A DNA stretch of 64,000 nucleotides from a virus: positions 1 to 64,000 of IMG/VR virus record IMGVR_UViG_3300005336_000001; one strand, written 5' to 3'. The notes beneath the pieces are model-generated. The model was not told where the DNA came from. It saw nothing but the letters and a program-made list of their open reading frames with translations, and ran no database searches. Made by a program: the position numbers and the translations under genes. Shown piece after piece: positions 5,128 to 52,168 of this stretch. Each line of letters starts with the position of its first letter. Position 1 is the first letter of the stretch.

Positions 5128-5128
5128 C

Positions 5129-5314: not shown

Positions 5315-5324
5315 AGGAACCAAG

Positions 5325-7940
5325 ATGGCCGAAGTTGAACTTGACCCATTGGCTGGCCCTCAGGGTGGCAAGGAGTCAATCCGTCTTGCTTCCTTCTGGA
5401 ATGATCAAATTGAAAAAATGGGTAAGGACAAAGGCTTTGTCCAATTCATCAAACGTGGTCAAAAGATTGAAGCCCGCTATCGTGACGAGCGCAATAAGTC
5501 TGATGAAGATATGCGCCGCAAATACAATGCACTTTGGTCAAACGTTGAAATCCTGAAACCTGCTGTCTTTGGAAAAACTCCTCTTCCTTTGGCTGAGCGT
5601 AAGTTCGGTGACAAAGATCCTATTGCGCGTGGTGCCGCTCAAATACTTGAGCGTGCCCTTCGCAATGAAATTGAAATCTGTAATTTCAATGAAGCTTTGA
5701 CACAAGCGGTCAGCGATTACTTACTGCCGGGACGTGGCACTGTGTGGGTTCGTTATGAGCCTGAATTTAGCACGGGTATTTCTCTCGGTACTGAAGACAG
5801 TATCGACATGGAAGACAGTGAAGGGCCGTTAGAGCCGGGTCTTGATGATGAAATTGATGAACAGGAGGATCCTGCTGAGACCAAGCTTGAAGAAACAAAC
5901 AGTCAGGTTGTTCGTGAGTCCACCCCTATTGACTATATTCATTGGGAGGATTTCCTCGTTTTCCCAACAAATGCTCGCACGTGGGCTGAGGTTGTGGCCG
6001 TAGGTAAGCGTGTCTATCTGACGTATGAGCAAATGAAAGAGCGTTTTGGCAGGGAGATTGCCAAAGCAATACCTCTTGAAAAGGACGAGAGACAGAAAAA
6101 CAAGTTTGAGAACTCAAACCCTGAGAACGAAGTCAAAGGTCAAGTGTTTGAAATCTGGAACAAAGAGGATCGTAAAGTTTATTGGGTGGCAGAGTCATAT
6201 GACTTCCTGCTCGATCGGAAGGATGACCCGCTTCATCTTGAAGGATTTTTCCCAACACCACGTCCTCTAATTGCGAACCAAACTACTGGCACGCTTATCC
6301 CCGTGGCTGATTACATTCAGTATCAGGATCAAGCCACTCAAATTGACGAGCTGAGCCAACGCATTGCCATGCTTACCCGCGCTTGTAAGGTAGCGGGCGT
6401 CTATGCTGCGAGTGCCAAGGGTATCCAGCGACTTTTGAATGAGTCTGTTGAAAACGAACTCATCCCAGTTGATGACTGGGCTGCTTTTGCTGAGAAGGGT
6501 GGCATTGCTGGACAAGTGTCGTTCCTGCCTCTTAAGGAAATCATCGGCGTTTTGAACGAATTGATGATGCTTAAGCAAAAGCAAATTGAAGAAATGGATC
6601 GTCTTACTGGCATCAACGACCTTATGCGGGGCACAACCGATGCTCGTGAAACATTGGGCGGGCAACGTCTCAAATCCAACTATACTGGCACGCGCCTTTC
6701 AGCACGTCAGAATGAAGTTGCGCGATTTGCGAGAGATACTGTTCGTATTATGGCTGACATTATGGCTCAGCATTTTTCTCCTCAGTCTCTTGTTGAAGCT
6801 TCTGGTGCAATGTTTGAGGAAGGTCTTGGGATAGACCTTGAGAGCGTTCAGGCACAGCAGGCAGCAATCTCTTCTGTGCCACCACAGACCCCGCCTATGT
6901 CGGGCAGTGCAAGTCCGATAATGGGTGGACCGCCCGGTGCACCTCCTGCGGCTCCCACACCGGCCCCGATGGGGGGTGCACCGGCACCAATGCCTGTGGG
7001 TGGGCCTCCTCGTCTACCTATGCCCCCTCCTGCTCCCATGGGTGGCAACGTTGTTCCGTTCCAACCACGCCCCGGAGCTATGCCCGGTGGCGGTGCCCCC
7101 GGCATGCCTGTCACAGCCCCGCCTGTCGCGCCGGGTCTGCCTATGCCTTTACCCCCTGATCCCATGCAAATCGCGCTGGGTGAGGCTGTAAAGCGCATTG
7201 ACGCAGCCATTGGGCTGCTCCGCAATGAACGCTTGCGCGGCTTCAGGGTGGATATTGAGGTCGATTCCACGATTTTCAGCGATGCGGCTCAAGAAAAGGG
7301 TGATCGCACTGAATTTATCTCAGAAGTTACAAAATATCTTCAAACTTCTATGGCTATGTCAGCACAAGTTCCAGAAATTACTCCACTTTTGGGCAAATTA
7401 TTGCAATTTGGTGTTCGTGGCTTCCGTGTTGGCCGCGACCTTGAGTCCACCATTGAAGAATTCTGTGATCAGGCGGTAAAAATTGCGAAACAGAAGCAAG
7501 CAGCGGCAGCCGCTCAACCAAATCCTGAACAAATCAAAGCGCAGGCTCAGGCTGTGCAAGCACAGGCTACCTCGCAGGCAGCAACTGTGCGCGCTCAAGC
7601 AGATATCCAGAAGTCTAACAACGATATTCAGACTTCACAGCAAGATGCTGCCTCTCAACAGCAACAGGCACAGGCTGAGGTAGCTCGTCAAGCGCTTGAG
7701 ATGCAGGGTGAGCAACAGAATAGCCAAGCTGACATGATGATGAAGCAAATGGAAGTCAGAATGCGTCAAATGGAACTTGAACTGGAGAAAATGCGCCTTG
7801 AGTCTGAGAACAAACAGATGGAATCTGATCAACGTATTGCCAAGTCTGATGAAAAGATTGCACAGACACAAGCAAAGGCAGCAGTGCAAGCTGCAAAAGT
7901 GAAACCAACTAATCCATCGAGTATGGACGGAGCAGCATAA
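5325..7940 (+). CDS. Portal protein with Pro/Gly/Met-rich insert and Gln-rich coiled-coil tail
   Basis: An 871-residue portal (head-tail connector) of podovirus type, longer than the roughly 536 residues of T7 or 725 of P22. The N-terminal 500 residues show the usual portal pattern, including D-L-M-R-G-T-T-D-A-R-E-T-L-G and S-A-R-Q-N-E-V-A-R-F-A-R-D. An acidic loop lies near residues 155-195. Residues about 520-610 are an extremely Pro/Gly/Met-rich linker, and about 710-870 are a Gln/Ala/Glu-rich predicted coiled coil. It follows terL closely (10 nt after the small membrane gene), and its ATG has an AAGGAACC-like site upstream. The extended tail may form a barrel as in P22, which is inferred. 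Confidence 0.88.
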   Translation: MAEVELDPLAGPQGGKESIRLASFWNDQIEKMGKDKGFVQFIKRGQKIEARYRDERNKSDEDMRRKYNALWSNVEILKPAVFGKTPLPLAERKFGDKDPIARGAAQILERALRNEIEICNFNEALTQAVSDYLLPGRGTVWVRYEPEFSTGISLGTEDSIDMEDSEGPLEPGLDDEIDEQEDPAETKLEETNSQVVRESTPIDYIHWEDFLVFPTNARTWAEVVAVGKRVYLTYEQMKERFGREIAKAIPLEKDERQKNKFENSNPENEVKGQVFEIWNKEDRKVYWVAESYDFLLDRKDDPLHLEGFFPTPRPLIANQTTGTLIPVADYIQYQDQATQIDELSQRIAMLTRACKVAGVYAASAKGIQRLLNESVENELIPVDDWAAFAEKGGIAGQVSFLPLKEIIGVLNELMMLKQKQIEEMDRLTGINDLMRGTTDARETLGGQRLKSNYTGTRLSARQNEVARFARDTVRIMADIMAQHFSPQSLVEASGAMFEEGLGIDLESVQAQQAAISSVPPQTPPMSGSASPIMGGPPGAPPAAPTPAPMGGAPAPMPVGGPPRLPMPPPAPMGGNVVPFQPRPGAMPGGGAPGMPVTAPPVAPGLPMPLPPDPMQIALGEAVKRIDAAIGLLRNERLRGFRVDIEVDSTIFSDAAQEKGDRTEFISEVTKYLQTSMAMSAQVPEITPLLGKLLQFGVRGFRVGRDLESTIEEFCDQAVKIAKQKQAAAAAQPNPEQIKAQAQAVQAQATSQAATVRAQADIQKSNNDIQTSQQDAASQQQQAQAEVARQALEMQGEQQNSQADMMMKQMEVRMRQMELELEKMRLESENKQMESDQRIAKSDEKIAQTQAKAAVQAAKVKPTNPSSMDGAA

Positions 7941-27759: not shown

Positions 27760-29456
27760 CACGTTTATTCAAGTTTTTGGTCGCTGCATTTTTGCTGCTT
27801 CCTATATCTGCTTTGGCGCAGAGTGGCGGGCAACTTCAACCGGGGCAGGTCTTGGGTAATTCCACCGCCTCGCCTAAACCAGCGGCAGGTGCCTCCCTTG
27901 CGGCCATGTTTGCGCAAGGATTTTGCAATACACAAGGAGCCATCTTAACACGTAATGCCTCCACTTGGGTTTGTCTTAACCCCGGCACTGTGAGCCTTCC
28001 ACTTCTGTCAGGTGGTGCAGGTGGGAACGTTGCTTATAGTCAGGTGCCTAATGCTGGCATCCTTAATCCATCAACAACGGTTAATGGTGTTACCTGCACC
28101 CTTGGTTCTACCTGCACCATTACCGCATCGGCAGGCACCATCACCGTTGGCGTGACTACTGTCGCTGGTGGTCCGGGTCTTCTTTATAATACCACAAGCG
28201 GTGGAACACTTACTGCTGTTACTCTTTCCAATAATGGTGTGCTGGTCACCAATGGTTCCGGTGTGCCGTCTGTGTCCACCACTTTGCCGTCTGGTTTGTC
28301 TATCCCAGCTCCAACCATTACTGGAGCGCTCACGTATGGGGGTGTGGCTCTAAGTGCTGCTGTCACTGGCACCGGTTCCATGGTCCTGTCAGTTAGCCCA
28401 ACCATTACTGGCACTCTTAGCTCGGCCATTCACACAATTACTTCCAATTCCGCTTCTGCCCTTGCGGTTGGATTGAACGGTGCTACCAATCCAGCATTCA
28501 ATGTGGACGATTCTACAGCTTCGTCTGCTACTGGTATCTCTATCAAGTCTTTTGCGGCTGGTGGTGGCGTTAGCATCTCAGCTATTTCCTCGGGTACAAA
28601 TGAGGGATTGGCGATCAACGCTAAAGGTAGTGGTGTTATCAGTATCGGCAATGTGTCGACCGGCTCTGTCAATATCACGCCACAGATTAATTCTGCCAAC
28701 CATGTAATTACGTCCGCATCGTTTAATTCATTCACGGTTGGTTTAAATGGTGTTACCAATCCAGCATTCAATGTGGACGATTCTACAGCTTCTTCTGTTA
28801 CGGGAGTTAGTATAAAATCGGCGGCGGCTGGTGGTGGCGTCGCTTTGTCGACTACATCTTCTGGCACGAATGAAGCGCTCCTTATTAGCGCTAAAGGTAC
28901 CGGCGGCATCACTATTGGGAATACATCAACAGGCACCGTTACGATCAACCCAGCGGTTTCACTTACATCGACGGTTAACGGCCTGACTGTAGTTCCTACT
29001 GGCGGCGGCGCTTCATTGCAGGTGAATAGTGGTGTCTCCTTTGTGGTCACCAACAATATTACGCTGTCAGGAACGAATGGAACGACGTGGACTGGGCCGT
29101 CTTCGAATGCGAATCTGGCTGCGCTTAACATCGCCAGCCAGACGATAACTGGTGGTGCTGGTGTTACATCTCAATCATTATCCACTGGGTCTATTACAGC
29201 AGACTGCACGACACGGCCACTTCAGACGATAACTGGCGCACAAGTGGCGTGGTCCATTACTGCACCCTCCACGGATGGAAGTTGCATCATCAAGCTGACA
29301 AATGCTGCATCCAGTGCAGTTGCCCCAACATTCTCCGGTTTTACAGTCGGCAGCAATACAGGTGACCCACTGACGTCTGTAAATTCGTCTGCTTTCATGA
29401 TTTGGATCGCACGTGTTGGTGGCACATCCACTTATTCAGTAAAGGCCCTTCAATGA
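27756..29456 (+). CDS. Putative fibre/adhesin with Sec signal peptide and 90-residue repeats
   Basis: A 566-residue protein from ATG 27756 (ATGA overlap). M-T-R-L-F-K-F, a hydrophobic core and A-L-A-Q look like a Sec signal peptide with cleavage near residue 22. The mature part is Ser/Thr/Gly-rich beta sequence. Two ~90-residue units begin N-P-A-F-N-V-D-D-S-T-A-S-S and contain A-A-G-G-G-V and S-S-G-T-N-E. Probably trimeric fibre-like; whether it is on the virion or secreted is unclear. Confidence 0.6.
   Translation: MTRLFKFLVAAFLLLPISALAQSGGQLQPGQVLGNSTASPKPAAGASLAAMFAQGFCNTQGAILTRNASTWVCLNPGTVSLPLLSGGAGGNVAYSQVPNAGILNPSTTVNGVTCTLGSTCTITASAGTITVGVTTVAGGPGLLYNTTSGGTLTAVTLSNNGVLVTNGSGVPSVSTTLPSGLSIPAPTITGALTYGGVALSAAVTGTGSMVLSVSPTITGTLSSAIHTITSNSASALAVGLNGATNPAFNVDDSTASSATGISIKSFAAGGGVSISAISSGTNEGLAINAKGSGVISIGNVSTGSVNITPQINSANHVITSASFNSFTVGLNGVTNPAFNVDDSTASSVTGVSIKSAAAGGGVALSTTSSGTNEALLISAKGTGGITIGNTSTGTVTINPAVSLTSTVNGLTVVPTGGGASLQVNSGVSFVVTNNITLSGTNGTTWTGPSSNANLAALNIASQTITGGAGVTSQSLSTGSITADCTTRPLQTITGAQVAWSITAPSTDGSCIIKLTNAASSAVAPTFSGFTVGSNTGDPLTSVNSSAFMIWIARVGGTSTYSVKALQ
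28485..28522. repeat. 38-bp direct repeat, copy 1
   Basis: Identical to 28755-28792. The two copies are 270 bp (90 codons) apart within the fibre/adhesin gene and mark an internal duplication of a repeat unit. Confidence 0.9.
28755..28792. repeat. 38-bp direct repeat, copy 2
   Basis: Second copy of the repeat at 28485-28522. The flanking codons have diverged while this core stayed identical, which suggests recent recombination or conversion between units. Confidence 0.9.
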
Positions 29457-32146
29457 TTGTTGCTCGTTTCAACGCAATCGTCTTAGTACTTTGGTTGGCG
29501 GTTGCGCCAGTCTTTGCACAAATTGGCCCCGTACCGACCATCGTTGCCCTTGCTATTCCACCATCAGCATCGGGGACTACCTCGGCGCTGGACTGCACGG
29601 GCGGAACGATAACCACCAGTGGTGTTAATCGCATCCACACGTTCACGAGTGGCGGTACTCTAACGTGCACTGGTAGCGGAACCGCAAGCTATCTGATTGT
29701 CGCAGGTGGTGGCGGCGGTGGCTCTGGTGTCGCTGGCCTATCGAACGGCGGCGGCGGCGGTGCGGGTGGCGTGTTGAGCGGAAGCGCGTCTCTTGGGGCG
29801 GGTACGTTCACAGCCGTAGTTGGCGGCGGCGGCGCTTCAAATATCTCCGGGTCGAATAGTTCATTCAATGGCGTTACCGCGACCGGCGGTGGCGCGGGCG
29901 GCGGCAACGGTGGCACCGGCGTCAACGGCAGCGCGGGAGGCTCCGGCGGCGGAGGTAACGGCACCACCACCAATTTTGGCACCGGCGGTGCTGGCACCGG
30001 CGGCCAAGGCAACAACGGCGGCGCGGGTGTCGGCAGCACGGCGGCACCGGGTGGCGGTGGCGGCTGCAATGCAGTCGGCGGCGCGGGCGTCGGAAGCAAT
30101 GGTGGCGCAGGTGGTAACGGCTGCTCGTCGTCGATCAGCGGTAGCGCGGTCACTTATGGTGGCGGTGGCGGTGGCTCGACCGCGACCGGCGGCGCGAGTG
30201 GCGCGGGCGCTGGGGGCTCCGGCGGCGGTGGTCAGGGTTCAACTGGCGGTGCAGGCACGGCAGGCACAGCCAATCTCGGCGGCGGTGGAGGCGGTGGAGG
30301 CAACGCTGGTTCAGCGGCGGGTGGCGCAGGCGGCTCCGGCGTCGTCATCGTCTCCTATGCCGCGCAGGTCACGGTGTTCCTAACGTCGTCGAGCGGCAAC
30401 TGGGTTGCCCCGTCGAATTGGAACAGCGGCAACAATTCGATCGAGACTATTGGCGGCGGCGGCGCAGGAAACAACTCCGCAGGTGGCGGAGGTGGAGGTG
30501 GCGCGTATTCCAAGGCTACTAACGTAGCACTCACGGCTGGTACTCCAGTTTCGTTCGTCGTCGGTTCGGGCGGCGCAACGTCGGGCAGCAGCGGCGGAGA
30601 CACCTATTTCTGTAATGCCACCTCCAACTGCGCGAGCATTTCCGGTACGTCGGTTCAATCGGGAGCGAAGGGCGGTGTAGGTGCCACCACAGGGACTGGT
30701 GGGGCTGGTGGCGCTGCCGCGTCCGGCGTGGGCAGCACAAAGAACAGCGGCGGCACGGGCGGCAACGTCGGCACCAATTCATGGGGTGCTGGTGGCGGCG
30801 CTGGAGGTCCGAACGGTGCGGGTGCGACTGGCGGCAACGGTATCAGCTCTGGCTTGGGATCGGGCGGTGGCGGTGGCGGCGGCAATGGCGGCGGCACGGC
30901 TGGTGCTAACGGTGTCTCGACAACGACCGGCGGTGCAGGCGGCAATAACTCTCTAGCGGCTGGCGGTGGGGCTGGCGGCATCAATGCGTTTGGCTCTGCG
31001 GGAACATTTGGCGGCGGCGGTGGCGGCGGCGGTGGAAATGGAAACGGCGGTGGTGCTGGTGGTGCCGGTGTCGAATTCAGTGCGTCTCCCTCGTTCGGAT
31101 CGGGCGGCGGCGGCGGTGGTGGCGCGAGCAATGGCGTGCCGGGCGGCAACGGTGGTCTTTACGGTGGCGGCGGCGCTGGCGGTCTCACGACCGCAGGTGC
31201 GGGCGCGCTGGGCCTGATCGTCATCAAGTGGACGCCGACCACGGGCACACAGGTCTACACATTCACCGCAAGCGGTACGTTTTATGCACCGAGCAGTTTT
31301 TCATCGTCAACTTCAGAGGCGTGGGGTGCTGGCGGAAGTGGTGCCGCTGGGACGTCATCGCTCCGTGGTGGTGGCGGCGGTGGTGGCGGAGCATATTCAT
31401 TCTCCTCTGCATCTTTAGCTGTAAATACGCCCTATGTGCTTACGGTGTCTGGATCGACCACTGGTGGAGTCGCCTCAGGTAATGATGGCACAACGGGTGG
31501 TGATAGTTATTTCGGTGGTGCAAGTTGTGGAGCCGCACTCGTATGTGCCAAGGGCGGCGGAGCAGGTCTTGCATCCGGTAACGGCGGATCAGGAGGTGCG
31601 GCAACTTCTGGCATTGGTACTGTCAAGAAAAATGGGGGTGCAGGCGGTACAGGCGTCACCAATCGCGCGGGCAACGGTGGTGGTGGTGCTGGTGGCCCCA
31701 ACGGAGATGGACAAACAGGCGGCAGCAATAGCGCCGCCAACGGACCCGGAGCTGGTGGCGGTGGACCGGATGGTGGTTCGGCTGGCGGCTCCCCGTCGGG
31801 CACGACGGGCGGCAATGGCGGCAACAATTTCGCAGGAACAGGCGGTGGTATAGGAACGACGACTGTTGCTGGGTCAGCGAGCGCTGGCGGCGGTGGTGCT
31901 GGGGGTGGCGCAGGATCGACCTTCAATGCCGGGGGTAATGGAGCTAACGGAACAGCAAACAATGCGGGTGGCGGCGGTGGTGGCGGCGGCAACAATAACA
32001 CCACATCGGTTGCTGGCGTCGCAGGCGGAAATGGTGGCTTATACGGCGGTGGCGGTTCTGGTGGTATGGGGACCGGCGCAGTTAGTTCGTCCTCAAACGG
32101 CGGCAATGGTGCTGCTGGTGTTATTGTCGTAAGTGTAAAACCATAG
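29453..32146 (+). CDS. Giant glycine-rich adhesin-like protein with signal peptide
   Basis: An 897-residue protein from ATG 29453 (ATGA overlap). The N-terminus (M-I-V-A-R-F, hydrophobic core, V-F-A-Q) looks like a signal peptide. The mature chain has three modules of about 250-300 residues. Each opens with a short beta segment (F-T-S-G-G-T-L-T-C; V-F-L-T-S-S-S-G-N-W; F-T-A-S-G-T-F-Y-A), then A-Y-S or similar, then long poly-Gly/Asn/Ala tracts, and closes with G-x-x-x-V-I-V-S/K. This resembles polyglycine-sandwich receptor-binding tips such as Salmonella phage S16 gp38. The gene is clearly GC-richer than its neighbours. Confidence 0.7.
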   Translation: MIVARFNAIVLVLWLAVAPVFAQIGPVPTIVALAIPPSASGTTSALDCTGGTITTSGVNRIHTFTSGGTLTCTGSGTASYLIVAGGGGGGSGVAGLSNGGGGGAGGVLSGSASLGAGTFTAVVGGGGASNISGSNSSFNGVTATGGGAGGGNGGTGVNGSAGGSGGGGNGTTTNFGTGGAGTGGQGNNGGAGVGSTAAPGGGGGCNAVGGAGVGSNGGAGGNGCSSSISGSAVTYGGGGGGSTATGGASGAGAGGSGGGGQGSTGGAGTAGTANLGGGGGGGGNAGSAAGGAGGSGVVIVSYAAQVTVFLTSSSGNWVAPSNWNSGNNSIETIGGGGAGNNSAGGGGGGGAYSKATNVALTAGTPVSFVVGSGGATSGSSGGDTYFCNATSNCASISGTSVQSGAKGGVGATTGTGGAGGAAASGVGSTKNSGGTGGNVGTNSWGAGGGAGGPNGAGATGGNGISSGLGSGGGGGGGNGGGTAGANGVSTTTGGAGGNNSLAAGGGAGGINAFGSAGTFGGGGGGGGGNGNGGGAGGAGVEFSASPSFGSGGGGGGGASNGVPGGNGGLYGGGGAGGLTTAGAGALGLIVIKWTPTTGTQVYTFTASGTFYAPSSFSSSTSEAWGAGGSGAAGTSSLRGGGGGGGGAYSFSSASLAVNTPYVLTVSGSTTGGVASGNDGTTGGDSYFGGASCGAALVCAKGGGAGLASGNGGSGGAATSGIGTVKKNGGAGGTGVTNRAGNGGGGAGGPNGDGQTGGSNSAANGPGAGGGGPDGGSAGGSPSGTTGGNGGNNFAGTGGGIGTTTVAGSASAGGGGAGGGAGSTFNAGGNGANGTANNAGGGGGGGGNNNTTSVAGVAGGNGGLYGGGGSGGMGTGAVSSSSNGGNGAAGVIVVSVKP

Positions 32147-35860: not shown

Positions 35861-36166
35861 TTATTTGTTACGTGCCAAGTAAAGTTCACAAAAGAGCGCG
35901 TCTCTTGTTTCTTTGGGCTCAGCAGATAGCCTAGACAAGATCTCCAAGTACGGGCTGCCCCATATCTTTTGAGCAATATAATGATCAAAGATAAGGTAAT
36001 CCGCACTTGGTATTTCTTGTGGAGCTTGGCTCCCATTTTGGGTGAAAATCAGATGGTGCCCAGTAACAGCCACATCTACGTTTGGAAACGCTTCACGGAT
36101 GACAGCACAAAAAACTTCTGTGTTGTCAGTATTCCGTTTGTTTTCTGTTTCCCACAAACGAGCCAT
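35861..36166 (-). CDS. Hypothetical protein
   Basis: A 101-residue protein from ATG 36166, which overlaps the stop of the GcrA-like gene (TAATG); the longer open frame to 36214 lies inside that gene. It has a mixed alpha/beta sequence with V-D-V-A-V-T-G-H-H-L-I-F and Y-L-I-F-D-H-Y-I-A-Q-K-I-W-G. Coupled to gcrA; function unknown. Confidence 0.65.
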   Translation of the reverse strand: MARLWETENKRNTDNTEVFCAVIREAFPNVDVAVTGHHLIFTQNGSQAPQEIPSADYLIFDHYIAQKIWGSPYLEILSRLSAEPKETRDALFCELYLARNK

Positions 36167-36702
36167 TATCTGTTTATGTAAGTTCGTACAGCCAGCAGCG
36201 TGTGTGTCTCGCAATATGGTTTATCAACCAAACGACGGCATCCACAAAATCGGAAATCGGATTGCTTTGGATCTCCCATCGGCCACTTGCACATGGTGGG
36301 CTGGAGTTCAGCAAACGTGACTGCCGTATCGCTCTCAATAAGTTTCAACCTTACTCGTTCCTTCTTTTTAACTAATACCAGTCTAGCTGGTCGTGGCATC
36401 AATCCTCTGGCTATCAATGCGGTATTGGCGCGAAGGTTTTTGTGAGACTTGAAAATGTTTCTGCTAATGACTTTCTCACCAGCCGGTTTTAACAACCCAG
36501 CTTTTCGTGCCCTATCTAATTTTCCTGCTATTGAGCCCCTTGAGCGGCCTACGTCTTCAGCGATTTTGCCCATTGAATGACCATCATTAAAGAGGTTGAT
36601 TACGACAGTGATCTCTTCAGAAGTCCATGCTTTGCCAATTCCGCGCCAGTTCAACTTAGTTGATTCTGCTGTCGGCTTCAATTGTGATGCTGCTTCTTCC
36701 AT
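36166..36702 (-). CDS. gcrA: GcrA-family cell-cycle transcription regulator
   Basis: A 178-residue protein. Residues about 26-70 are the DNA-binding helical part (W-T-S-E-E-I-T-V-V-I-N-L-F-N-D-G-H-S-M-G, then I-A-E-D-V-G-R-S-R-G-S-I-A-G-K). The C-terminal domain has the hallmark C-K-W-P-M-G-D-P, F-C-G-C, and K-P-Y-C-x-x-H. In Caulobacter, GcrA binds sigma70-RNA polymerase and activates promoters, many with CcrM-methylated GANTC. The ATG has AAGGAAAG upstream; the gene overlaps the SbcC-like gene by 47 bp. Here it may turn host RNA polymerase toward phage or cell-cycle promoters, which is inferred. Confidence 0.92.
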   Translation of the reverse strand: MEEAASQLKPTAESTKLNWRGIGKAWTSEEITVVINLFNDGHSMGKIAEDVGRSRGSIAGKLDRARKAGLLKPAGEKVISRNIFKSHKNLRANTALIARGLMPRPARLVLVKKKERVRLKLIESDTAVTFAELQPTMCKWPMGDPKQSDFRFCGCRRLVDKPYCETHTLLAVRTYINR

Positions 36703-39820: not shown

Positions 39821-39987
39821 TACTCTTTCCGTGCTTCATAGTGAGCCAGCCAAATAACCAAGAACAGCAACACTGGCACAATAAACAAGTGAACTACGAA
39901 ACTGGCGAAGGACGGTTGCGCCATGAAGCCAGTGGCACCCCACACAACGAGTGCAAGGTACACCGATGGTTTAGTGTGAAAGTTCAT
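39820..39987 (-). CDS. Small membrane protein
   Basis: A 55-residue protein from ATG 39987 (the open frame to 40092 overlaps the terC-like gene). It has two hydrophobic segments, about residues 8-22 and 25-46, ending in a charged tail (H-Y-E-A-R-K-E). It overlaps the stop of the TerC-like gene by 17 bp and may be functionally linked to it. Confidence 0.6.
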   Translation of the reverse strand: MNFHTKPSVYLALVVWGATGFMAQPSFASFVVHLFIVPVLLFLVIWLAHYEARKE

Positions 39988-40654
39988 GTGTTTTCCATTT
40001 TGACCAGAGGTAGGCGACACCAAGCACAAATCCAACGCCCTGTGCAGCCCAGATACGTGGATCAATCTCAAGTTGGGTGATAAAGCCCTCACTGGCGATC
40101 AACTCGCCGGCAAGCCAGCCTAGCAGCGCGGCCCCCGCCCAAATAAGGATGGGGAATTTGTTCAGGATCATGGTTATCAAGGTAGCCCCAGTAACCACTA
40201 GCGGGATACTGACAGCCAAACCAATGGCAAGAAGGAGGACGTTGCCTTGTGCAACAGCAGCCACCGCCACCATGTTATCCACACTCATGACAATATCAGC
40301 CAACACGATGATTCTGATTGCTGCAAAGAGTTTGTCAGAAGACTTTACGTCACTCTCACCATCATCAGGCAGACACATCTTGATGGCTACAAAGAGCAAT
40401 GCCAACCCGCCAGCAAGTTTGAGGTAAGGAAGTGTCATTAGTGTGGACACAACGCCTGTAGCGGCAATACGCAACAAGACAGCACTCAGGGCACCTAAGA
40501 TAATACCCCAAAAGCGTTGACGCTCAGGCAGGCCACGGCATGCCATAGCTATAACCAGTGCATTGTCACCAGACAATAGTGCATCTATCCAAATGACTTT
40601 GCCAATAGCCAGCCAAAAGGCTGGGTCGTGCAGTTCCATTTCTAACCACGGCAT
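39971..40654 (-). CDS. TerC-family integral membrane protein
   Basis: A 227-residue protein of the TerC/YjbE type with about seven membrane helices. The family's acidic intramembrane motifs are seen as W-I-D-A-L-L-S-G-D-N-A-L-V-I-A and I-V-L-A-D-I-V-M-S-V-D-N-M-V-A-V. Known members export manganese or act in tellurite/stress resistance and in metallating exported proteins. A TerB-like gene lies just upstream, separated by a structured leader. Function in a phage is inferred only. Confidence 0.9.
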   Translation of the reverse strand: MPWLEMELHDPAFWLAIGKVIWIDALLSGDNALVIAMACRGLPERQRFWGIILGALSAVLLRIAATGVVSTLMTLPYLKLAGGLALLFVAIKMCLPDDGESDVKSSDKLFAAIRIIVLADIVMSVDNMVAVAAVAQGNVLLLAIGLAVSIPLVVTGATLITMILNKFPILIWAGAALLGWLAGELIASEGFITQLEIDPRIWAAQGVGFVLGVAYLWSKWKTHELSH

Positions 40655-40742: not shown

Positions 40743-41204
40743 TTAGAAGTCAAACTTGGAAGGATCAACATTCAGGCGCTTTGCAATCTTTTCAAGCACC
40801 TTGGTCTCATCTTCACCAGCTTTGCCGTTGTGGTTTGACGAGGCCACGTCTACCGCAACAAGGTAGACGTCATCAGCCATTTGGCTCGCATTGGGCAGGC
40901 TGTTCACTGCATCAAGGTTCCGTGCAAGCTCTTGCTTGCCAGAAGCAGTGGTGGCATGCCCTAGTGCGTTGTTGAGGGTGCTTTCAATCTGTTGACGGGT
41001 GTACAGGCCCGACAACTGGGTGTGGCTGGTAAGCACTTCCATGGCCTTTTTCTTTTCAGCATCCTCACAGGTGCCGTCAGCATAGGCAATGAGGGCACAT
41101 GAAGCAGAGACTGCCTTCAGGAAGTCTTCAGTCTTGCCATACTCCTTGTTCAGTTCCTTCATGCCTGAGGCAAAGACGCTCTTAAACATAGACGAGATTG
41201 ACAT
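40743..41204 (-). CDS. TerB-like tellurite-resistance-family protein
   Basis: A 153-residue acidic helical protein. L-K-A-V-S-A-S-C-A-L-I-A-Y-A-D-G and G-K-A-G-E-D-E-T-K-V-L-E-K-I-A-K-R-L-N-V-D-P-S-K-F follow the TerB pattern (paired acidic EF-like helices that bind metals). TerB is a cytosolic partner of TerC in bacterial Ter stress systems, and the two genes are adjacent here. Assignment from remembered family pattern. Confidence 0.8.
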   Translation of the reverse strand: MSISSMFKSVFASGMKELNKEYGKTEDFLKAVSASCALIAYADGTCEDAEKKKAMEVLTSHTQLSGLYTRQQIESTLNNALGHATTASGKQELARNLDAVNSLPNASQMADDVYLVAVDVASSNHNGKAGEDETKVLEKIAKRLNVDPSKFDF

Positions 41205-42655: not shown

Positions 42656-43670
42656 ACTTACTCCGCTTGGGCAAGAAGGTAGTTTCAATTTCACCCCATA
42701 CTTGTTTGACGGCCTCTGCTGCACGAAGACGTTCTTCCTTGTGCTCAGCATCAGTCATTTCATTCAAGCCCTTGAGGTAATCCTTGAACTCTGTCTTTTT
42801 TAGGTCTATGGCATCAAGTCTATCCACTTCATTGAGCCAGTTTACACTGGCCAGAAGGTCATTGATGCCGTAGCCGAATTCAAAGGTGAACTCTGCCTCT
42901 CTGAACGGCATGCCTACCTTGTTCTTTTTTACCTTGGCTTTAATTTCAATCCCGTATGGCCGTTCAACCTTGTTGATGGTCTTTTTGAGGATTTTGATAT
43001 GGGCAAGCCAGAACACTTGAGAGGCGTAGAAGTCGAGAGCCTTCCCCCCGCTTCTCTTATGCTTCTCTCCAAACATAGCGCCAATATTGTCCCGCACTTG
43101 GGACACAATGAAAAGAAGGACGTTGGCTTGTTCCTGCTTTCGTGTAATTTTACGAAACATCTCACTCATCTTTTTGGCTTTAGCTGCTCCAAAAGATGCC
43201 TTGTCAATATCTCGATCCATTTCAGCGTCGTCGGAAAGGGCGTCAAAAGAATCAAGGACGTAGAGGCCCGGCTTCTTAGCTTTTTTCTGTTGGTCACAAA
43301 AAGCATCAAAGTCCTTGTAGAAGTCCTCAACAGTAATAATTGGATTTTCACGATCGCCAAAGTCAATGCGGTCAAGAGGCAAACCCATAGCCTCAGCGTA
43401 ACTGTCATCCCATGCAGCTTCTGTTTCACGATAAGCAATGTTGCCATCTGGGCACACTATTGAGAAGTTTATCATGACTTCAGTGGCAGTTCCGGTTTTA
43501 GCCGTGCTCTTGTCACCCACAATGTTGGCGGTGCGCCCTAGAGCAAGCCCACCGCCCAAAGCGCAGTCCAACAGAGTGCAGCCAGTGCTAACAAACTGAA
43601 TGTTAGTCTTTTCAGAAGTGAAATAATTGTTTCGTGGCTTCTCAACGACTGCCCGTACCCTTTTTACCAT
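42648..43670 (-). CDS. RecA/UvsX-like recombinase
   Basis: A 340-residue strand-exchange ATPase from ATG 43670 (TGATG overlap). The Walker A is G-D-K-S-T-A-K-T (about 52-59), with Ala where RecA has Gly, and Walker B-like L-Y-V-L-D-S-F-D-A-L lies near residue 143. The L1/L2 region contains F-I-V-S-Q-V-R-D-N-I-G, and K-R-S-G-G-K-A-L-D-F-Y follows. It sits with dCTP deaminase and the gp32-like SSB, as in recombination-dependent replication systems. Confidence 0.88.
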   Translation of the reverse strand: MVKRVRAVVEKPRNNYFTSEKTNIQFVSTGCTLLDCALGGGLALGRTANIVGDKSTAKTGTATEVMINFSIVCPDGNIAYRETEAAWDDSYAEAMGLPLDRIDFGDRENPIITVEDFYKDFDAFCDQQKKAKKPGLYVLDSFDALSDDAEMDRDIDKASFGAAKAKKMSEMFRKITRKQEQANVLLFIVSQVRDNIGAMFGEKHKRSGGKALDFYASQVFWLAHIKILKKTINKVERPYGIEIKAKVKKNKVGMPFREAEFTFEFGYGINDLLASVNWLNEVDRLDAIDLKKTEFKDYLKGLNEMTDAEHKEERLRAAEAVKQVWGEIETTFLPKRSKYA

Positions 43671-44128
43671 CACTCTTCCATCTTTGCTGGGACAGGTTCA
43701 TTTACCTGATCCTGATATTTACCATTGTAGACTTGTTCAGTTGGTTTATCCAAAAATTCAAATATAATCTGAGCAATAGGCATTCCCTTCTTCAGATTAA
43801 GCATGTGGATGCCATTAAGAGCCAATTCAAGAGTTAAGTATCCCCTCCAGCCGGGTTCAATAACTGTGTTAAATACTTGCAATCCTTGGCGTGCCCAAGT
43901 TGATTTATCATGGACACGTCCCACAACATCATCCGGCATATTGAAATGCTCAATCGTGGAAGCAAGCCTGAAACGCATGTATTCATTGGCATTGAGCATT
44001 ACGTCTTGAGCAATGCGGACGTCATAACCGCAACTGGACAAGCCATAACTCATCCCAAACTCAACTGTACGTTCACAGAAGGGGGTGATGATGCCACAAC
44101 ACCTGATGCTTTGTGCTGAGAGGATCAT
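43670..44128 (-). CDS. dcd: dCTP deaminase / dUTPase-family enzyme
   Basis: A 152-residue trimeric-type enzyme making dUMP or dUTP precursors and keeping dUTP low. The motifs are S-S-C-G-Y-D-V-R, H-D-K-S-T-W-A-R-Q-G-L (about 73-83), I-E-P-G-W-R-G-Y-L-T-L-E-L (about 89-101) and P-I-A-Q-I-I-F-E with a final Y-N-G-K-Y-Q-D-Q. The E-P-G-W-R-G-x-L-T-L-E box is typical of Dcd. Control of uracil fits with the uracil-glycosylase domain on the phage polymerase. Confidence 0.88.
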   Translation of the reverse strand: MILSAQSIRCCGIITPFCERTVEFGMSYGLSSCGYDVRIAQDVMLNANEYMRFRLASTIEHFNMPDDVVGRVHDKSTWARQGLQVFNTVIEPGWRGYLTLELALNGIHMLNLKKGMPIAQIIFEFLDKPTEQVYNGKYQDQVNEPVPAKMEE

Positions 44129-46457: not shown

Positions 46458-47405
46458 TTAAACATCCAATTTCAAAGCTAGGCCGATTGAATACATCAGG
46501 GGAGCTTGTTTGTCTGAAGTCAGGTATGGTTTAGAGAAAGCCTCAATAAGTGAGAGTAGTTGGATGGCTGTTTTGTCTGATTTAGTGCCCTTCAATACGG
46601 CTGCAAAATAATTCATCAGAACTATTCGAACACTTTCAGCTTCCTGACCCTCCAACCCCTTTAGATACTTCGTAGCTTCAGCCCAATTGTGTCCCTTACC
46701 TGATACGAGCCAACGCGCGAGGTCCACTATTTCTTTGGATTGGCCAGCATTGCGCATGATCTCACGCGCTTCATTTAGTGTTTTGCAGGAGAGACACTCC
46801 TCAAGATACACTAGGGCTTGACGTGGCGAGCCCCCACAATTTTCTACTATGGCCTCAATAATTTCGTCTGAAACGTCAAACTTTTCATCATCTGCCACAT
46901 GCACTAACAGGTCAAGTATCAGCTCTTCCTTGACCGGCTTGAGGTCGTACCTGAGGCATCGGGTGATGATTGCCTTTGGCATCTTTGCCACTTCGGTAGT
47001 GCAAAATGCCCAGTAGACGTGTGCTGGTGGCTCCTCAATAGGCTTGAGCATGACATCCCACGCTGCCGCTGACAGCCTGTGAGCCTCATCCATGATGATG
47101 AATTTAGTAGGGCTCCCACCAATGGCCCTGTACAGTGTGCGGCTTACCAGCTCTTGGACGTCTTCCTTGCCTGACTTGGAAGCACCATTTACTTCTTCCA
47201 AGTTAATAACACTGCGCCCACTACCCCCAAACTCACCAGCAAGAATACGAGCAAGAGTTGTTTTTCCTGTACCGCTAGGCCCGGTGAAGATAAAAGCATG
47301 AGCACGTGCATCTTTGACTACCCTTTTCAAACTACGGACCACAGGGTCTTGGCCTAAGACGTCTTCAAACTTCTCAGGACGGTATTTAGTGTGAAGGGAA
47401 CTCAT
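46458..47405 (-). CDS. Clamp-loader ATPase (DnaX/gp44-like)
   Basis: A 315-residue AAA+ protein that opens sliding clamps on primed DNA. It starts with Y-R-P-E-K-F-E-D-V-L-G-Q-D, has Walker A G-P-S-G-T-G-K-T (about 42-49), Walker B I-I-M-D-E-A-H-R (about 103-110), then the sensor segment F-C-T-T and T-R-C-L-R-Y-D with the SRC-like motif changed to TRC. It lies between the polymerase and SSB genes. Confidence 0.92.
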   Translation of the reverse strand: MSSLHTKYRPEKFEDVLGQDPVVRSLKRVVKDARAHAFIFTGPSGTGKTTLARILAGEFGGSGRSVINLEEVNGASKSGKEDVQELVSRTLYRAIGGSPTKFIIMDEAHRLSAAAWDVMLKPIEEPPAHVYWAFCTTEVAKMPKAIITRCLRYDLKPVKEELILDLLVHVADDEKFDVSDEIIEAIVENCGGSPRQALVYLEECLSCKTLNEAREIMRNAGQSKEIVDLARWLVSGKGHNWAEATKYLKGLEGQEAESVRIVLMNYFAAVLKGTKSDKTAIQLLSLIEAFSKPYLTSDKQAPLMYSIGLALKLDV

Positions 47406-47878
47406 AGGTCTTTGTCTCGTTCACCATCACGAAGTCTGTGAACTATTTCTTTAGGTGTCTCAGGATGTACATGCAATGCACGCATCCCTCGTAAATAGAA
47501 ATTCCAACAACGTTTTCTGATTGTTTCATCAGGAAAATGAATGCCTGCAATAGCAAAGGCATGCCACAGATGTTGGAGGAAATGAACGTTATATTGATCA
47601 ATTGATCCGTAGAAAGTATTAGTCGCTCCCTTCCATGGATCTTCAAAATCAGCACCAATTAGGACGGTTTGCATGAATGGATCATCACGCCATACAACAC
47701 CTTTATCCATTGGCTTGCCTTCACGTCCTGAGACCATCACCAAAGCACGTAAAGCGCGGACAATTGGTTTTGCCACATCCTCTTTGGCAACTCCATCAGG
47801 CCCGCGAAGTGCGAGTATCAACACTCCTTGCTGCCTCAATGAGATATTCATTACCCAATCTTGGAGTACGCTAGGCAT
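47402..47878 (-). CDS. Conserved hypothetical beside DNA polymerase
   Basis: A 158-residue protein overlapping the clamp loader (4 bp) and abutting the polymerase stop. L-R-Q-Q-G-V-L-I-L-A-L-R-G-P-D-G and V-R-A-L-R-A-L-V-M-V form a pattern I recall from a conserved phage protein next to polymerases. It could be a small clamp-loader subunit by position, but no sequence evidence supports that. Confidence 0.65.
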   Translation of the reverse strand: MPSVLQDWVMNISLRQQGVLILALRGPDGVAKEDVAKPIVRALRALVMVSGREGKPMDKGVVWRDDPFMQTVLIGADFEDPWKGATNTFYGSIDQYNVHFLQHLWHAFAIAGIHFPDETIRKRCWNFYLRGMRALHVHPETPKEIVHRLRDGERDKDL

Positions 47879-50499
47879 TAGAGATCCTTATGTGACCAGA
47901 ACTTGCCAATTCCCTTTTCACTCATCTCAAGCCAGTTATAGCCTTTTGAACCGGTGACGGATAGAGGCACGTTGATGAACGGGTAAACAGGAGCCAACAT
48001 GGTTTTGTAGATTCTTTCAACAGCCTCTTCTATGATCTTAGGATCATCAGGTATACTGAATGTGAGATCGTCGTGAATGTTCATTATTGGATGGAAATAC
48101 CATTTGCCTGTAGACGAAGCGTAGCTAGACAGATCAACCATAGCCCTGCACACAATGTCGCAAGCAACACTCTGTATTGGATAATTAATCGCCTGCGGAC
48201 GGGAGAGAGGATAATGACGCCTGCGCCCCGTCGGGCTTTCCACAAAACCTGTCTCATAGTAGTTGCTCACTAGACGTTTTTGCCATTGGTACACCCCGCT
48301 AAAGTCTTTCCAGAAATCATTAAACAGCTTCTCAATGACGTGCTTGGGTGCTTCCACTCCAGTAGCCGCACTGAGATATCCAGCAATGGATTCCTTAGCT
48401 GCACCAAAGAAGGCTGGAAACACCAATTTGTTTTTGATCAAGCCACGGAAGGTTTTCATCGTGGTCTTGTCATCGTACATATGGGAGCCACCTATGTAGG
48501 CAGGCCAGAGTTTGGCGGCACGTTGCGCCCACTCCATGTGCATATCATAATCTTCCCATAAAGCTTTGACAAAGGTTTTGTCTTTGGAGCACATAGCCCC
48601 CGTGCAACCTTCAAGCTGGCCGTAGTCAAATGCCAAAAGAACATGGCCTTTTTCAGCCACTACTTGTTCGCGAACCCATTTATCATTGCGTGACGGCCAG
48701 TTTTGTTGGTTCGGTTGATCGCTGGAAGTGCGTCCTGTTTCAGCAAACGTTGTGTTGAAGGATGGATGTATCTTGCCATCAGGCCAAATAACCGTGCCAG
48801 TCCCTAGTGTAAATTCATCCACATAAGTTGATTTCAATTTGCTGCGATTTCTGAAGGGCTCAAGGTCTTTGGCAAGTGGGTGGTTTATCTTGCTGAGAGT
48901 AGCCTTGTCACTTGATTCCTTACCTTCAGCATTAATCAGTAGCTTCCCAAACTTGGTGTGTTCTTTGAACAGCTTGATGACGTGAGGGCCGGAAGCTGGA
49001 TTGAATTTCTCATAGTTCTTGATCTCAAAAGCTTTGACTTCAGGGAGCGATCGTATTCGTTCCTCAATGGGAGTGATTTCATCAGCAAGTTTTTTCGCAA
49101 ACTTTTTGTTCGTGTCTTGATCAATGTTGATTCCCATATGTTGCATCAATGCCACAGTAGGTTGTCGTGGCTGTGCTTCACGGTAGGCTGCAAGGAGCCC
49201 TTCAATTTCCAACATAATCATCTGAAGCTTGAACAGACGCAGCGTGTATTTGGTGTCTGCACCGTTATAGATCAGGGTCTCGTCAAGGTCAGCTTTGTGC
49301 ATATTCTTTTTGTCAAGCTTGAAGAGACTTTTGTAGCCGATGCCAAAGTTTTGTTTTACGAGGAAATCTAAAGCCTGATATGGGTTTGGTTGGAATTGCT
49401 CGTCATTGCCACCACGCTTTCCCCTACGTTCATCCAAAAAGTGAGACTGCATCATTGTGCATTCCCAAACATCGTGGAAGATTGAATTCCTCCCCAAAAG
49501 TGAAATCAGCCACTCAACTTCGAAAGGGGTGTTATGGGCTATCACTGTGGTTTGATCGGATAGGAGATCTTTCAGAGCTGCTTTTAGTTTTGTTTTCGCA
49601 ATATCATCCCAGCCTGCTTTGTCATGATCCATGGCAAATGAGAAGTTGGTTTTGCCAAAGCTAATTGCGACTGTGAGAACCTTGGCACCCACCGCGTAAG
49701 GGCGCAGAGGCCACGTTTCCAAATCAATGGCCTTTTCAGGTGCCTTGCGGGCCTCACTGATAAGCGCCAAGACCTGCCCTAGTTGGGTACTGCTCTGCCC
49801 ATTAAACGCTTGTATGCCTGCCCTAACGCTTTGGGGGGTATCAATTTCAGGGGGGTCTAATTCATCAGCTAGTTTGCTAGCGCGAGCTAGGTCAAACTTG
49901 AGGCAATGCCCTAGTTTTGATCTGAGGGGCTCACTTCCTTCATAAGCGTGTTCGATAATGAAAGATGGGTGGTAAGTTGGCATGAACCAGCAGGCATGTC
50001 CCCCCACTTTGACGGCGAAGAGTCGTCCACGCAAACCAACCATGTCACTTGACCCCAACATCCATTGAAGAGGTAACACCCCCAAACCGATGATAAGTCT
50101 CGGCTTTGATCTTTCAATAGATGTGGTGACAAGAGTTCGGCAGCATTCCATTGCGACCCACTGAGGCTGGTCTTTGTAGTGGTCGTAATCACGAATAACA
50201 TTATCATAACTAAACCTATCAGCGCCCCGCAACAAGCTGCCAAGAAGTTTACCAGCCGGTCCTCCGAACGGTTGACCTTTTTCGTCACCGATTTCAGTAG
50301 GGGCGTCTCCAAGGACGTAGATTCCATTCTGTTCACCCAAGTCAGGCGGCATTTTTGGAGTGCAATTGTTGGCCTTATCCAAAGGGCACGCACGGCAACC
50401 TAATCGGTTGAACGTTTCCTTGGACGATTTTCCAGCCTTGGCTGGAGCTGACCCACGTTTAATTGGAGCAGCTTTTTTCTGAGTAAAAAAGAAAGACAT
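47878..50499 (-). CDS. Uracil-DNA glycosylase / 3'-5' exonuclease / family A DNA polymerase fusion
   Basis: An 873-residue protein. Residues about 30-215 look like a family 4-type uracil-DNA glycosylase: C-R-A-C-P-L (35-40), G-D-A-P-T-E-I-G-D-E-K-G-Q-P-F-G-G-P-A-G (64-83), L-I-I-G-L-G (135-140) and P-T-Y-H-P-S (174-179). The exonuclease motif D-L-E-T is at 259-262. The polymerase has motif A D-Y-G-Q-L-E (625-630), motif B R-x(3)-K-x-K-x(7)-F-F-G (685-699) and motif C H-D-D (809-811) in place of the usual H-D-E. The usual third Fe-S Cys region of the glycosylase is altered, with C-C at 119-120. Replicative polymerase of this phage. Confidence 0.88.
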   Translation of the reverse strand: MSFFFTQKKAAPIKRGSAPAKAGKSSKETFNRLGCRACPLDKANNCTPKMPPDLGEQNGIYVLGDAPTEIGDEKGQPFGGPAGKLLGSLLRGADRFSYDNVIRDYDHYKDQPQWVAMECCRTLVTTSIERSKPRLIIGLGVLPLQWMLGSSDMVGLRGRLFAVKVGGHACWFMPTYHPSFIIEHAYEGSEPLRSKLGHCLKFDLARASKLADELDPPEIDTPQSVRAGIQAFNGQSSTQLGQVLALISEARKAPEKAIDLETWPLRPYAVGAKVLTVAISFGKTNFSFAMDHDKAGWDDIAKTKLKAALKDLLSDQTTVIAHNTPFEVEWLISLLGRNSIFHDVWECTMMQSHFLDERRGKRGGNDEQFQPNPYQALDFLVKQNFGIGYKSLFKLDKKNMHKADLDETLIYNGADTKYTLRLFKLQMIMLEIEGLLAAYREAQPRQPTVALMQHMGINIDQDTNKKFAKKLADEITPIEERIRSLPEVKAFEIKNYEKFNPASGPHVIKLFKEHTKFGKLLINAEGKESSDKATLSKINHPLAKDLEPFRNRSKLKSTYVDEFTLGTGTVIWPDGKIHPSFNTTFAETGRTSSDQPNQQNWPSRNDKWVREQVVAEKGHVLLAFDYGQLEGCTGAMCSKDKTFVKALWEDYDMHMEWAQRAAKLWPAYIGGSHMYDDKTTMKTFRGLIKNKLVFPAFFGAAKESIAGYLSAATGVEAPKHVIEKLFNDFWKDFSGVYQWQKRLVSNYYETGFVESPTGRRRHYPLSRPQAINYPIQSVACDIVCRAMVDLSSYASSTGKWYFHPIMNIHDDLTFSIPDDPKIIEEAVERIYKTMLAPVYPFINVPLSVTGSKGYNWLEMSEKGIGKFWSHKDL

Positions 50500-50729: not shown

Positions 50730-51749
50730 CTACCCCATATTGCTTACGAGCAACAAAGCCCCAATATCGTCATTCTCAAGCATGATACAATTGTCATGGA
50801 TAGCTATTTTCCCACAGTAACCCAAAGCCCGTTGGAGGTGGCCAGCGTTGATGCTGGCTTCCACGTCGGGATGACCCTTCAACAACATACTATCCTTGAT
50901 TTCCCCCATGTGAGTTTCCGTGTGCAATGACAGCTTGCCTTTGACTACAGAGGCCGTTGTCTTTTGACTTTCAGGGTCGGATAATACTCTTGCACGTGAA
51001 AGTGCCTCAACTAAGGCATCAGGCACATCTTGGACAGCAATTTTTGCCTTCACTGTCCTCTTTATCAGGTCATCAAAATCAATTGGTTCTTTTACTTCAA
51101 GAATGGTGCTGTAAACTGCCCACTCACCCATGCTGGCAAATATCCATTTATCATTGAATTGGATGCTGCCTTTGGTCATGCTCAGCACAGACCACAGTTT
51201 CAAAACGGCAGAGCAGAAGGGAGTCGGCATCAGAACACGGCTTTTGATGCCAGCCTTTAGTTGGACCCTTGTGATGGTGTCACCATTGCATGAGAACAGT
51301 TTGTCGCCGTTGAGGGTCACCCCTTGCAACGCAACCTGTGTCTCATCGCTGGATACTGTCTCAAGGCACATCGATAGGGCATTAGCAAAGCTCTCAGTAA
51401 AAGGCACTTTGAAATGCCAATCATCTTCAGGCACTTCAAAGATAAAGTCTTCCTCAGATTGAAACGGCAACTTGCTGATAGTTTTACCAAGCTTAATGGT
51501 TGCCGTATCCTGCTCAAGGTTGATTTCCATATCCTCAACTTGACTATTGGATAGCAAGCCCAACAACGTTGCCCCGTGGATGCCACAGCTCCACTCAAAC
51601 TCTGATGGCCCAATAATGGCAATTGTCCCGTTGTGGGCCGACACCGCACCCTCAGTGAAGTTGAAACATTGGAAGATAGGAACTGTTCTATCCACAGCCA
51701 ATGCAGGCTTTACCAGTTCAAGCGTTTTTACCAACTCTGCTCGATTCAT
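50730..51749 (-). CDS. Putative sliding clamp (DnaN-like)
   Basis: A 339-residue protein from ATG 51749 (TAATG overlap; the open frame to 51821 lies in the upstream gene). The N-terminus R-A-E-L-V-K-T-L-E-L-V-K-P-A-L-A, then T-V-P-I-F-Q-C-F, and V-S-A-H-N-G-T-I-A-I matches the first domain of bacterial beta clamps. The length fits a dimeric three-domain ring. It lies in the polymerase/clamp-loader neighbourhood. Later domains are too divergent to confirm by eye. Confidence 0.7.
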   Translation of the reverse strand: MNRAELVKTLELVKPALAVDRTVPIFQCFNFTEGAVSAHNGTIAIIGPSEFEWSCGIHGATLLGLLSNSQVEDMEINLEQDTATIKLGKTISKLPFQSEEDFIFEVPEDDWHFKVPFTESFANALSMCLETVSSDETQVALQGVTLNGDKLFSCNGDTITRVQLKAGIKSRVLMPTPFCSAVLKLWSVLSMTKGSIQFNDKWIFASMGEWAVYSTILEVKEPIDFDDLIKRTVKAKIAVQDVPDALVEALSRARVLSDPESQKTTASVVKGKLSLHTETHMGEIKDSMLLKGHPDVEASINAGHLQRALGYCGKIAIHDNCIMLENDDIGALLLVSNMG

Positions 51750-52168
51750 TATAATTCTTTCATCCAAGCTCTGTGACGGGCTGCAAGTGTGATGCAGTTT
51801 TTCTTTTTGGCCTCTTCCCATGTTATCCCATATTTTTCAACCCACGGATTTAAAATTGCTTCAATTCCAGCTTTATAAAGTTTTCTCCTCCATGGAATTA
51901 GATATCCAAAAATGTTAAGATTCCTATAATATCTGTTTTCAATATAAAAATCCAAACCATACATACTGTTAGCCATCCAAATTTCCATATTTTCAGTTTT
52001 GTTTGCAAGACGAAATGGAAAATGACATCGCCAATTTCGTGGTCTGAATTTGAGGCTGACAAGCACCCTTGTCAGGTCGTAATTGAAGCGTTCTCGTTTA
52101 GCTTTCTGGCGTTCGAAAAATGAGTAGATTTTCGTGACGCGGCACGAGCTTGTGCCCCTTCCAAGCAT
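51749..52168 (-). CDS. Hypothetical protein, start uncertain
   Basis: The open frame codes 139 residues, but the first 24 codons overlap the methyltransferase gene. An in-frame GTG near residue 35 or the Met near residue 61 (M-E-I-W-M-A-N) could be the true start. Aromatic-rich (F-Y-I-E-N-R-Y-Y-R-N-L-N-I-F-G-Y). No family is recognised. Confidence 0.5.
   Translation of the reverse strand: MLGRGTSSCRVTKIYSFFERQKAKRERFNYDLTRVLVSLKFRPRNWRCHFPFRLANKTENMEIWMANSMYGLDFYIENRYYRNLNIFGYLIPWRRKLYKAGIEAILNPWVEKYGITWEEAKKKNCITLAARHRAWMKEL

Follow-up and report, generated by a model that had tools for sequence, protein, structure and literature searches.

What does a uracil-DNA glycosylase (UDG) domain do on a phage family A DNA polymerase, and does it still remove uracil? 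We addressed this question in a 64,000-nucleotide stretch (the window) that forms positions 1 to 64,000 of the 93,560-base IMG/VR virus record IMGVR_UViG_3300005336_000001; all features located below lie on its minus strand. The original prediction placed a fusion of the two enzymes at 47878–50499, and this was borne out: the minus strand (50499 to 47878) carries a single open reading frame of 873 amino acids plus stop containing three Pfam domains, and the plus strand of the same interval has stop codons throughout. Residues 1–33 (50401–50499) comprise an N-terminal MSFFF peptide and, judged from the AlphaFold2 (AF2) model and the starts of relatives, a low-confidence, probably flexible linker. 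Residues 34–205 (49885–50400) form a family-4-type UDG fold domain, as indicated by Pfam, NCBIfam, AF2, Foldseek, and VIA-align. A 3′-5′ exonuclease with the motifs DLET, HNTPFE, and YNGAD (residues 238–430; 49210–49788) and a family A polymerase (residues 478–860; 47920–49068) follow, both delimited by Pfam and alignment. The Pfam matches were UDG (PF03167, residues 57–185; 41.8 bits, cut-off 24.3), which assigns the domain to the UDG superfamily, DNA_pol_A_exo1 (residues 238–424; 38.1 bits, cut-off 23.6), and DNA_pol_A (residues 478–858; 170.1 bits, cut-off 34.3).

The polymerase has the features of a proofreading family A enzyme, namely motifs A, B, and C of PF00476 and Exo I–III of PF01612, and scored 119.8 bits against the aminoadenine polymerase (DpoZ) model NF038380, below the cut-off of 500 bits. 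In the alignment, its O-helix, R685 to G699 (RGLIKNKLVFPAFFG; 48403–48447), is one residue longer than that of Pol I, as is the O-helix of its clade (KNKLVFPAFFG). Motif C is H809-D810-D811 (48067–48075), so it was correctly read as H-D-D rather than H-D-E; however, HDD occurs in every clade relative aligned there and gives way to HDA or HDS in more distant family A enzymes of phages, and therefore we do not regard it as a special feature. A sliding-clamp-like processivity factor gene (phrog_947; 50730–51821) lies upstream of the polymerase gene and a clamp loader ATPase gene (phrog_5846; 46458–47405) downstream. Because the fusion gene sits between these two genes, it most likely encodes the replicative polymerase of the phage. 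A GcrA-like gene in the phage hints at Alphaproteobacteria as the host. Only three cellular relatives of the fusion were found (a Methanoperedens MAG, Pseudoalteromonas, and an alphaproteobacterial MAG), with 29–34% identity.

The original prediction had staked its family-4-like glycosylase domain on the structure, and the predicted structure does hold a glycosylase fold. The AF2 model of residues 1–230, built with 49 relatives, had a pLDDT of 85.5 and a pTM of 0.80, and displays the UDG alpha/beta fold of family 4 (UDGa). Foldseek matched it to 1ui0 with an E value of 2.4e-12. In VIA-align, the best 34 matches were all family-4 UDG or UdgX structures (Z 20.7–21.9; the best over 182 residues with an rmsd of 2.4), followed by 2d3y, a Thermus thermophilus UDG (Z 16.2), and 9qhs (Z 15.3). 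Among NCBIfam models, the domain was nearest to family 4 (TIGR00758, 64.8 bits), under the cut-off of 125.3, and it scored 44.6 bits against the UdgX model TIGR03914 (cut-off 189.95). The sequence departs from both families at their defining motifs. The family-4 motif A GE(A/G)PG is GDAPT in the window, the motif B HPxxLLR is HPSFIIE, in which His and Pro are kept and Arg is replaced by Glu, and three of the four Cys of the [4Fe-4S] cluster are present; the GEQPG motif A and the KRRIH loop with the catalytic His of UdgX correspond to GDAPT and DYDHYKD.

The changed Fe-S Cys pattern noted in the original prediction was confirmed by alignment. C35 (50395–50397), C38 (50386–50388), and C120 (50140–50142) occupy the first, second, and fourth ligand positions, where Cys is found in 59 of 60, 59 of 59 with a letter, and 59 of 60 relatives, respectively. 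The third Cys is replaced by D104 (50188–50190; NVIRDYDH versus NVVKCRPP). This third position holds Cys in 26, Thr in 17, Asp in 13, and Ser in 4 of the 60 relatives, which requires at least 10 changes on the tree, and is Asp in every member of the branch to which the window belongs. The other three Cys persist even in relatives with broken catalysis; MAR10, in which all Fe-S Cys are lost, is the exception. Since the remaining Cys should drift once the cluster has vanished and no drift was seen except in MAR10, the conservation pattern points to a putative metal site in which three Cys are joined by a variable fourth ligand, Asp in the window, or to an open site. Among the 60 relatives, 19 have lost both Cys3 and the catalytic set, 15 Cys3 only, 4 catalysis only, and 22 neither. 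Although these counts are suggestive, the association did not reach significance on the tree (median p 0.25), and we rejected a family-wide tie of Cys3 loss to catalytic loss. The 15 sequences that lack Cys3 and keep the four scored catalytic residues indicate that ligand exchange needs no catalytic loss. In one relative (L064), an intein-like insert (CFPGDT...CVGN) lies exactly before Cys3, and splicing would rebuild NCRPPQNR.

To assign the catalytic residues, equivalences were derived by alignment with solved sequences, using T. thermophilus numbering for E41, E47, F54, N80, N89, and H155. In UdgX, Asn91 and His178 bind uracil, Glu52 activates the nucleophile, and Arg184 recruits the substrate, while family 4 has Pro and Asn at the positions of UdgX Arg107 and His109 (PMC10359453). 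The motif A region of the window (residues 64–78, GDAPTEIGDEKGQPF; 50266–50310) differs from the canonical GE(A/G)PGxxEDxxGxPF in that E41 is D65 and E47, in the GxxED stretch, is G71; F54 is kept as F78. N89 is lost (Lys109), in a column that depends on the alignment. N100 (50200–50202) corresponds to N80 of T. thermophilus and to the uracil-contacting N91 of UdgX (PMC10359453). In motif B (residues 176–183, YHPSFIIE; 49951–49974), the uracil-contacting H177 is kept and the DNA-intercalating Arg, the residue that recruits the substrate in UdgX, is E183. The uracil pocket of N100, F78, and H177 is thus retained. In the nine-member branch containing the window, the water-activating Glu is mostly lost, its partner Asn is lost, and the uracil-contacting Asn and His mostly remain. 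At the intercalating position, the other eight members all have Asp, and the sister group has Arg, Lys, or His in 16 of 16. Across the 60 relatives, the set of E41, N80, N89, and H155 is intact in 37 and broken in 23, with at least 11 changes on the tree; H155 alone needs 10.

These residues bear on whether the domain is a working glycosylase that clears uracil from nascent DNA or, before synthesis reaches it, from the template. Since the four scored residues are intact in 37 of the 60 relatives, e.g., L109 with GEAPG, CRPPENR, and HPSFVLR, some members of the family probably have an active glycosylase. For the window itself we consider this activity unlikely, even though its UDG domain exceeds the Pfam cut-off, N100, F78, and H177 are kept, a dCTP deaminase gene is present in the genome, and a role in genome-stability maintenance has been proposed for the PaBG fusion (PMC7412058). 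The changes at E41, E47, N89, and the intercalating Arg all speak against it. An abasic site created ahead of a polymerase would also block that polymerase. In UdgX, mutation of the equivalent Glu lowered kcat/Km ca. 75-fold (H109S/E52N compared with H109S; PMC10359453). The Asp at the Glu position of motif A may leave residual activity in the window, where the pocket residues remain.

The original prediction had offered uracil removal ahead of the fork or a non-catalytic uracil sensor as alternatives; the residue changes favor its non-catalytic part and disfavor removal. A sensor would bind template uracil in the pocket and make the polymerase pause, as with the N-terminal pocket of archaeal family B polymerases, and the retention of N100, H177, and the stacking F78 despite lost water activation is what such a sensor would show. 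However, the Arg to Asp/Glu exchange reverses the charge on the DNA-inserting loop, which argues against base flipping. The pocket also varies within the same branch, with Gln at N100 in L003, and Tyr at N100 and Gly at H177 in L046–L048, and the domains of T5-type polymerases described below lack the pocket residues that a sensor would be expected to keep. We therefore rate the sensor as improbable, slightly more so than a working glycosylase.

The suggestion that uracil handling is central to this phage fared poorly. The dCTP deaminase-type gene that it cited is indeed present (43670–44128; TIGR02274, 97.0 bits, cut-off 92.8; phrog_1663). In the possibly incomplete 93.5-kb record, neither thymidylate synthase (PF00303, PF02511) nor a separate dUTPase was found, the dCTP deaminase being the sole dUTPase-fold match. 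A dedicated uracil economy is thus unsupported.

Although catalytic residues are missing, the domain is retained under constraint. In pairs within the branch of the window with measurable dS (L005, L006, and L008), some dS values of which are near saturation, dN/dS was 0.09–0.11 for the UDG part, 0.10–0.12 for the exonuclease, and 0.07–0.11 for the polymerase. This equality indicates that the UDG domain is selected as strongly as the polymerase. Among the IMG/VR loci retrieved with only the polymerase part as query and with sufficient upstream DNA, 64 of 66 carry the UDG domain, in a test that covered the best-scoring 80 loci and hence the closer relatives. The two others are L224, an intein-bearing contig in which the domain lies beyond the fetched flank (the UDG part of this contig is visible in L080), and L220, which has a broken frame. 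In L101 and L104, the UDG domain has its own gene, which immediately precedes that of the polymerase, ends in TGA and TAA, respectively, and is followed by a GGAG stretch and the polymerase ATG, from which we conclude that the domain can act as its own chain. These observations weigh against the domain being inert evolutionary baggage that persists only because its deletion would unfold the rest of the protein. The many losses of catalytic residues fit that explanation, whereas purifying selection that equals that on the polymerase in strength, nearly invariant metal ligands, and the separate genes of L101 and L104 do not, and we hold it to be the least probable of the explanations weighed here. 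A scaffolding version of the baggage idea overlaps the reading preferred below.

A short aromatic or Leu-Phe peptide (MSFFF, MGFFF, MGLLF, MSFFP, MSLFGD, or MDDLF) opens the protein in the window and in almost every relative whose start is intact, and a variable low-confidence linker comes next; the T5 and SPO1 enzymes have no N-terminal aromatic peptide. Because these peptides resemble clamp-binding motifs and the clamp gene adjoins the polymerase gene in the window, ZHS, and MAR10, attachment of the clamp through the MSFFF peptide would be a reasonable hypothesis.

Taken together, the best explanation, to which we assign a probability of roughly 0.55, is that the domain derives from a glycosylase, is largely non-catalytic, and is kept as a module for polymerase function. 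The fold, domain order, residue losses, retention in relatives, and purifying selection are computed observations, and on this solid anatomy we infer the function, including the lack of glycosylase activity in the branch of the window. There, one Fe-S ligand has changed from Cys to Asp, the glycosylase has probably been disabled, and uracil excision by the domain has most likely fallen below a useful rate. The domain would instead be kept as a folded, probably metal-stabilized module serving the polymerase, which may hold the template or displaced DNA or, alternatively, may link the polymerase to the clamp through the MSFFF peptide and linker.

The survey of relatives suggests a reason other than repair for keeping the domain, even in T5. 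The T5 polymerase reportedly has a unique N-terminal region of ca. 130 residues, as described by Andraos et al. in 2004. Matches of a Lysinibacillus phage polymerase to T5-type enzymes began inside the UDG part of the Lysinibacillus phage protein, which prompted us to fold the first 160 residues of a T5-type polymerase (pLDDT 87.9). The 34 best VIA matches of this model were all family-4 UDG or UdgX structures (best Z 12.8 with 1ui1 over 126 residues, rmsd 2.5), with 9qhs (8.5), human TDG (8.1), and unrelated folds (at most 6.5) further down, and Foldseek matched it to 1ui1 with an E value of 3.0e-4 and a probability of 1.00. The first ca. 130 residues gave no Pfam UDG match, and T5-type N-termini have no Cys, motif A sequences, or uracil-pocket residues. 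Against the UDG domain, profile–profile comparison of these N-termini gave a weak match with a probability of 10.6%, and the E values in a profile search were 1.5 for the T5-like pork27 and 0.0018 for Chester. The fold comparison is the one convincing line, and by it the T5-type N-terminus would have a UDG fold. This region occurs in 904 phage records, and T5 itself (M24354) is 99.3% identical to the folded region over 133 residues. T5 would thus resemble the window in having a predicted UDG fold ahead of the exonuclease, and differ from it in having neither Cys nor motif A.

Together, the window, T5, and SPO1 support the retention of a UDG fold for DNA synthesis rather than repair. As a broader, tentative proposal that we put at somewhat below even odds, many phage family A replicases, those of T5 and SPO1 among them, may share the glycosylase fold as a general N-terminal module that was repeatedly stripped of catalysis, with the fold (and, in the clade of the window, a three-Cys metal site whose fourth ligand varies and is Asp here) kept for DNA synthesis. 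If this is true, the N-terminal region of T5 polymerase gains an origin and a testable role. What was a one-line annotation, a UDG in a phage polymerase that is assumed to remove uracil, becomes a testable evolutionary series in which a single domain, always in one position in phage replicases, ranges from active-looking through partly disabled to fully vestigial. If the domain serves synthesis, T5-type processivity, clamp attachment, and the purpose of the metal site could be tested in existing model phages. The exchange of Cys for Asp, Thr, or Ser at a single cluster ligand while the other three stay constant would be a natural experiment in non-standard Fe-S coordination beside a polymerase.

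The original prediction had left open how common the fusion is and called for a survey, which showed that it is common. By tblastn against 50,697 phage records, full-length relatives were found in Edwardsiella phage ZHS and ca. 35 Vibrio phages (29–32% identity). The UDG part of the window alone matched 55 of these records, and that of a more canonical relative matched 107, many on annotated polymerases, including those of SPO1 and its kin and of Serratia, Yersinia, and Rhizobium phages. Two IMG/VR searches gave several hundred relatives (380 and 352). The fusion has also been published for PaBG and ten related jumbo phages, in which it is taken to remove uracil (Evseev et al. 2020, PMC7412058), so the architecture was already known and we rejected its uniqueness. 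Our literature search found no report of the biochemistry of the fusion, and no mention of it in papers on YerA41 polymerase, jumbo phages, virioplankton PolA, or non-catalytic glycosylase domains.

With three domains in one chain, the window belongs to the phage UDG–exonuclease–PolA fusion type represented by PaBG, SPO1, and Mardecavirus. The PaBG/Lupandier DNA polymerase I (gp205) likewise has an N-terminal UDG, a 3′-5′ exonuclease, and a polymerase, and its UDG is also family-4-like, having been modelled on 1ui0; the paper reported no related phage UDGs outside this phage group and assumed activity (PMC7412058). By domain layout, the level at which PaBG was compared, the two agree, whereas the window is of a different lineage that has Asp instead of the third Cys and an altered motif A. 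SPO1 gp31 and related Bacillus phage polymerases share the domain order with an N-terminal UDG (Pfam, 79.7 bits), a link to which the old name of family-4 UDG/UdgX entries, 'Phage SPO1 DNA polymerase-related protein', also points; SPO1 has lost the Fe-S Cys and motif A, while the window keeps three Cys. A solved structure, the phiLo family A polymerase 'with modified template' (PDB 9qhs, released 2026-03-25; 1142 amino acids against 873 in the window), for which our literature search found no describing paper, has an N-terminal part that matches the window domain by fold, as given above, and by sequence (profile match to residues 17–161, E 6.9e-11). The stand-alone family-4 UDGs (TtUDGA 1ui0, TM0511 1vk2, and Sulfolobus tokodaii 4zbx) and UdgX (6ail) share with the window the fold, Cys1, Cys2, and Cys4, and the uracil-binding Asn and His; unlike the window, they are unfused and have an intact motif A, and family 4 also has an intact CRPPxNR. 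The nearest annotated whole-protein relatives are the polymerases of Mardecavirus (Vibrio phages MAR10, SSP002, and others) and Edwardsiella phage ZHS, which align over 97–99% at the identities given above and share with the window HDD, the longer O-helix, a clamp gene just upstream, and a clamp loader gene just downstream. Unlike the window, MAR10 has lost motif A along with its Cys, and ZHS has kept the Cys and lost the His.

Across the whole clade of polymerases comprising the window polymerase and its relatives, the O-helix (48403-48447 in the window) is one residue longer than in Pol I, as in KNKLVFPAFFG and KNQWVFPQFFG, and the usual motif B position lacks Tyr. In two relative loci, L101 and L104 (position 4625), the UDG domain is separated from the polymerase, and the two are encoded by adjacent genes. 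The intervening stop codons differ (TGA in L101 and TAA in L104), and a GGAG stretch precedes the polymerase ATG in both loci.

Intein-like inserts were observed at four conserved sites among the UDG-PolA polymerases of other relative loci. The insert of L064 (residues ~115-394) is positioned exactly at the third Fe-S cysteine, that of L081 is close to Exo II, and those of L080 and L073/L074 are at the TGRTS motif. In Edwardsiella phage ZHS, genes for 7-deazaguanine synthesis and of the queuine tRNA-ribosyltransferase type are annotated near the UDG-PolA polymerase (locus L033, positions 3047-5455).

Inside the replication module of the window, genes encoding a TerC-family membrane protein (39971-40654, minus strand; 142 bits) and a TerB-like protein (40743-41204, minus strand; 32 bits) adjoin each other. 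A GcrA-like cell-cycle regulator (36166-36702, minus strand; 81 bits) suggests that the host of this phage is an alphaproteobacterium. The stretch carrying the gene of a 914-aa glycine-rich protein (29402-32146, plus strand) has a GC content of 65.8%, compared with about 48% elsewhere.

T5-type DNA polymerases show no Pfam UDG match in their N-terminal region, yet a UDG fold was predicted for their first ~130 codons (L121; further loci, L144 and L149-L162). This N-terminal region occurs in 904 phage records.
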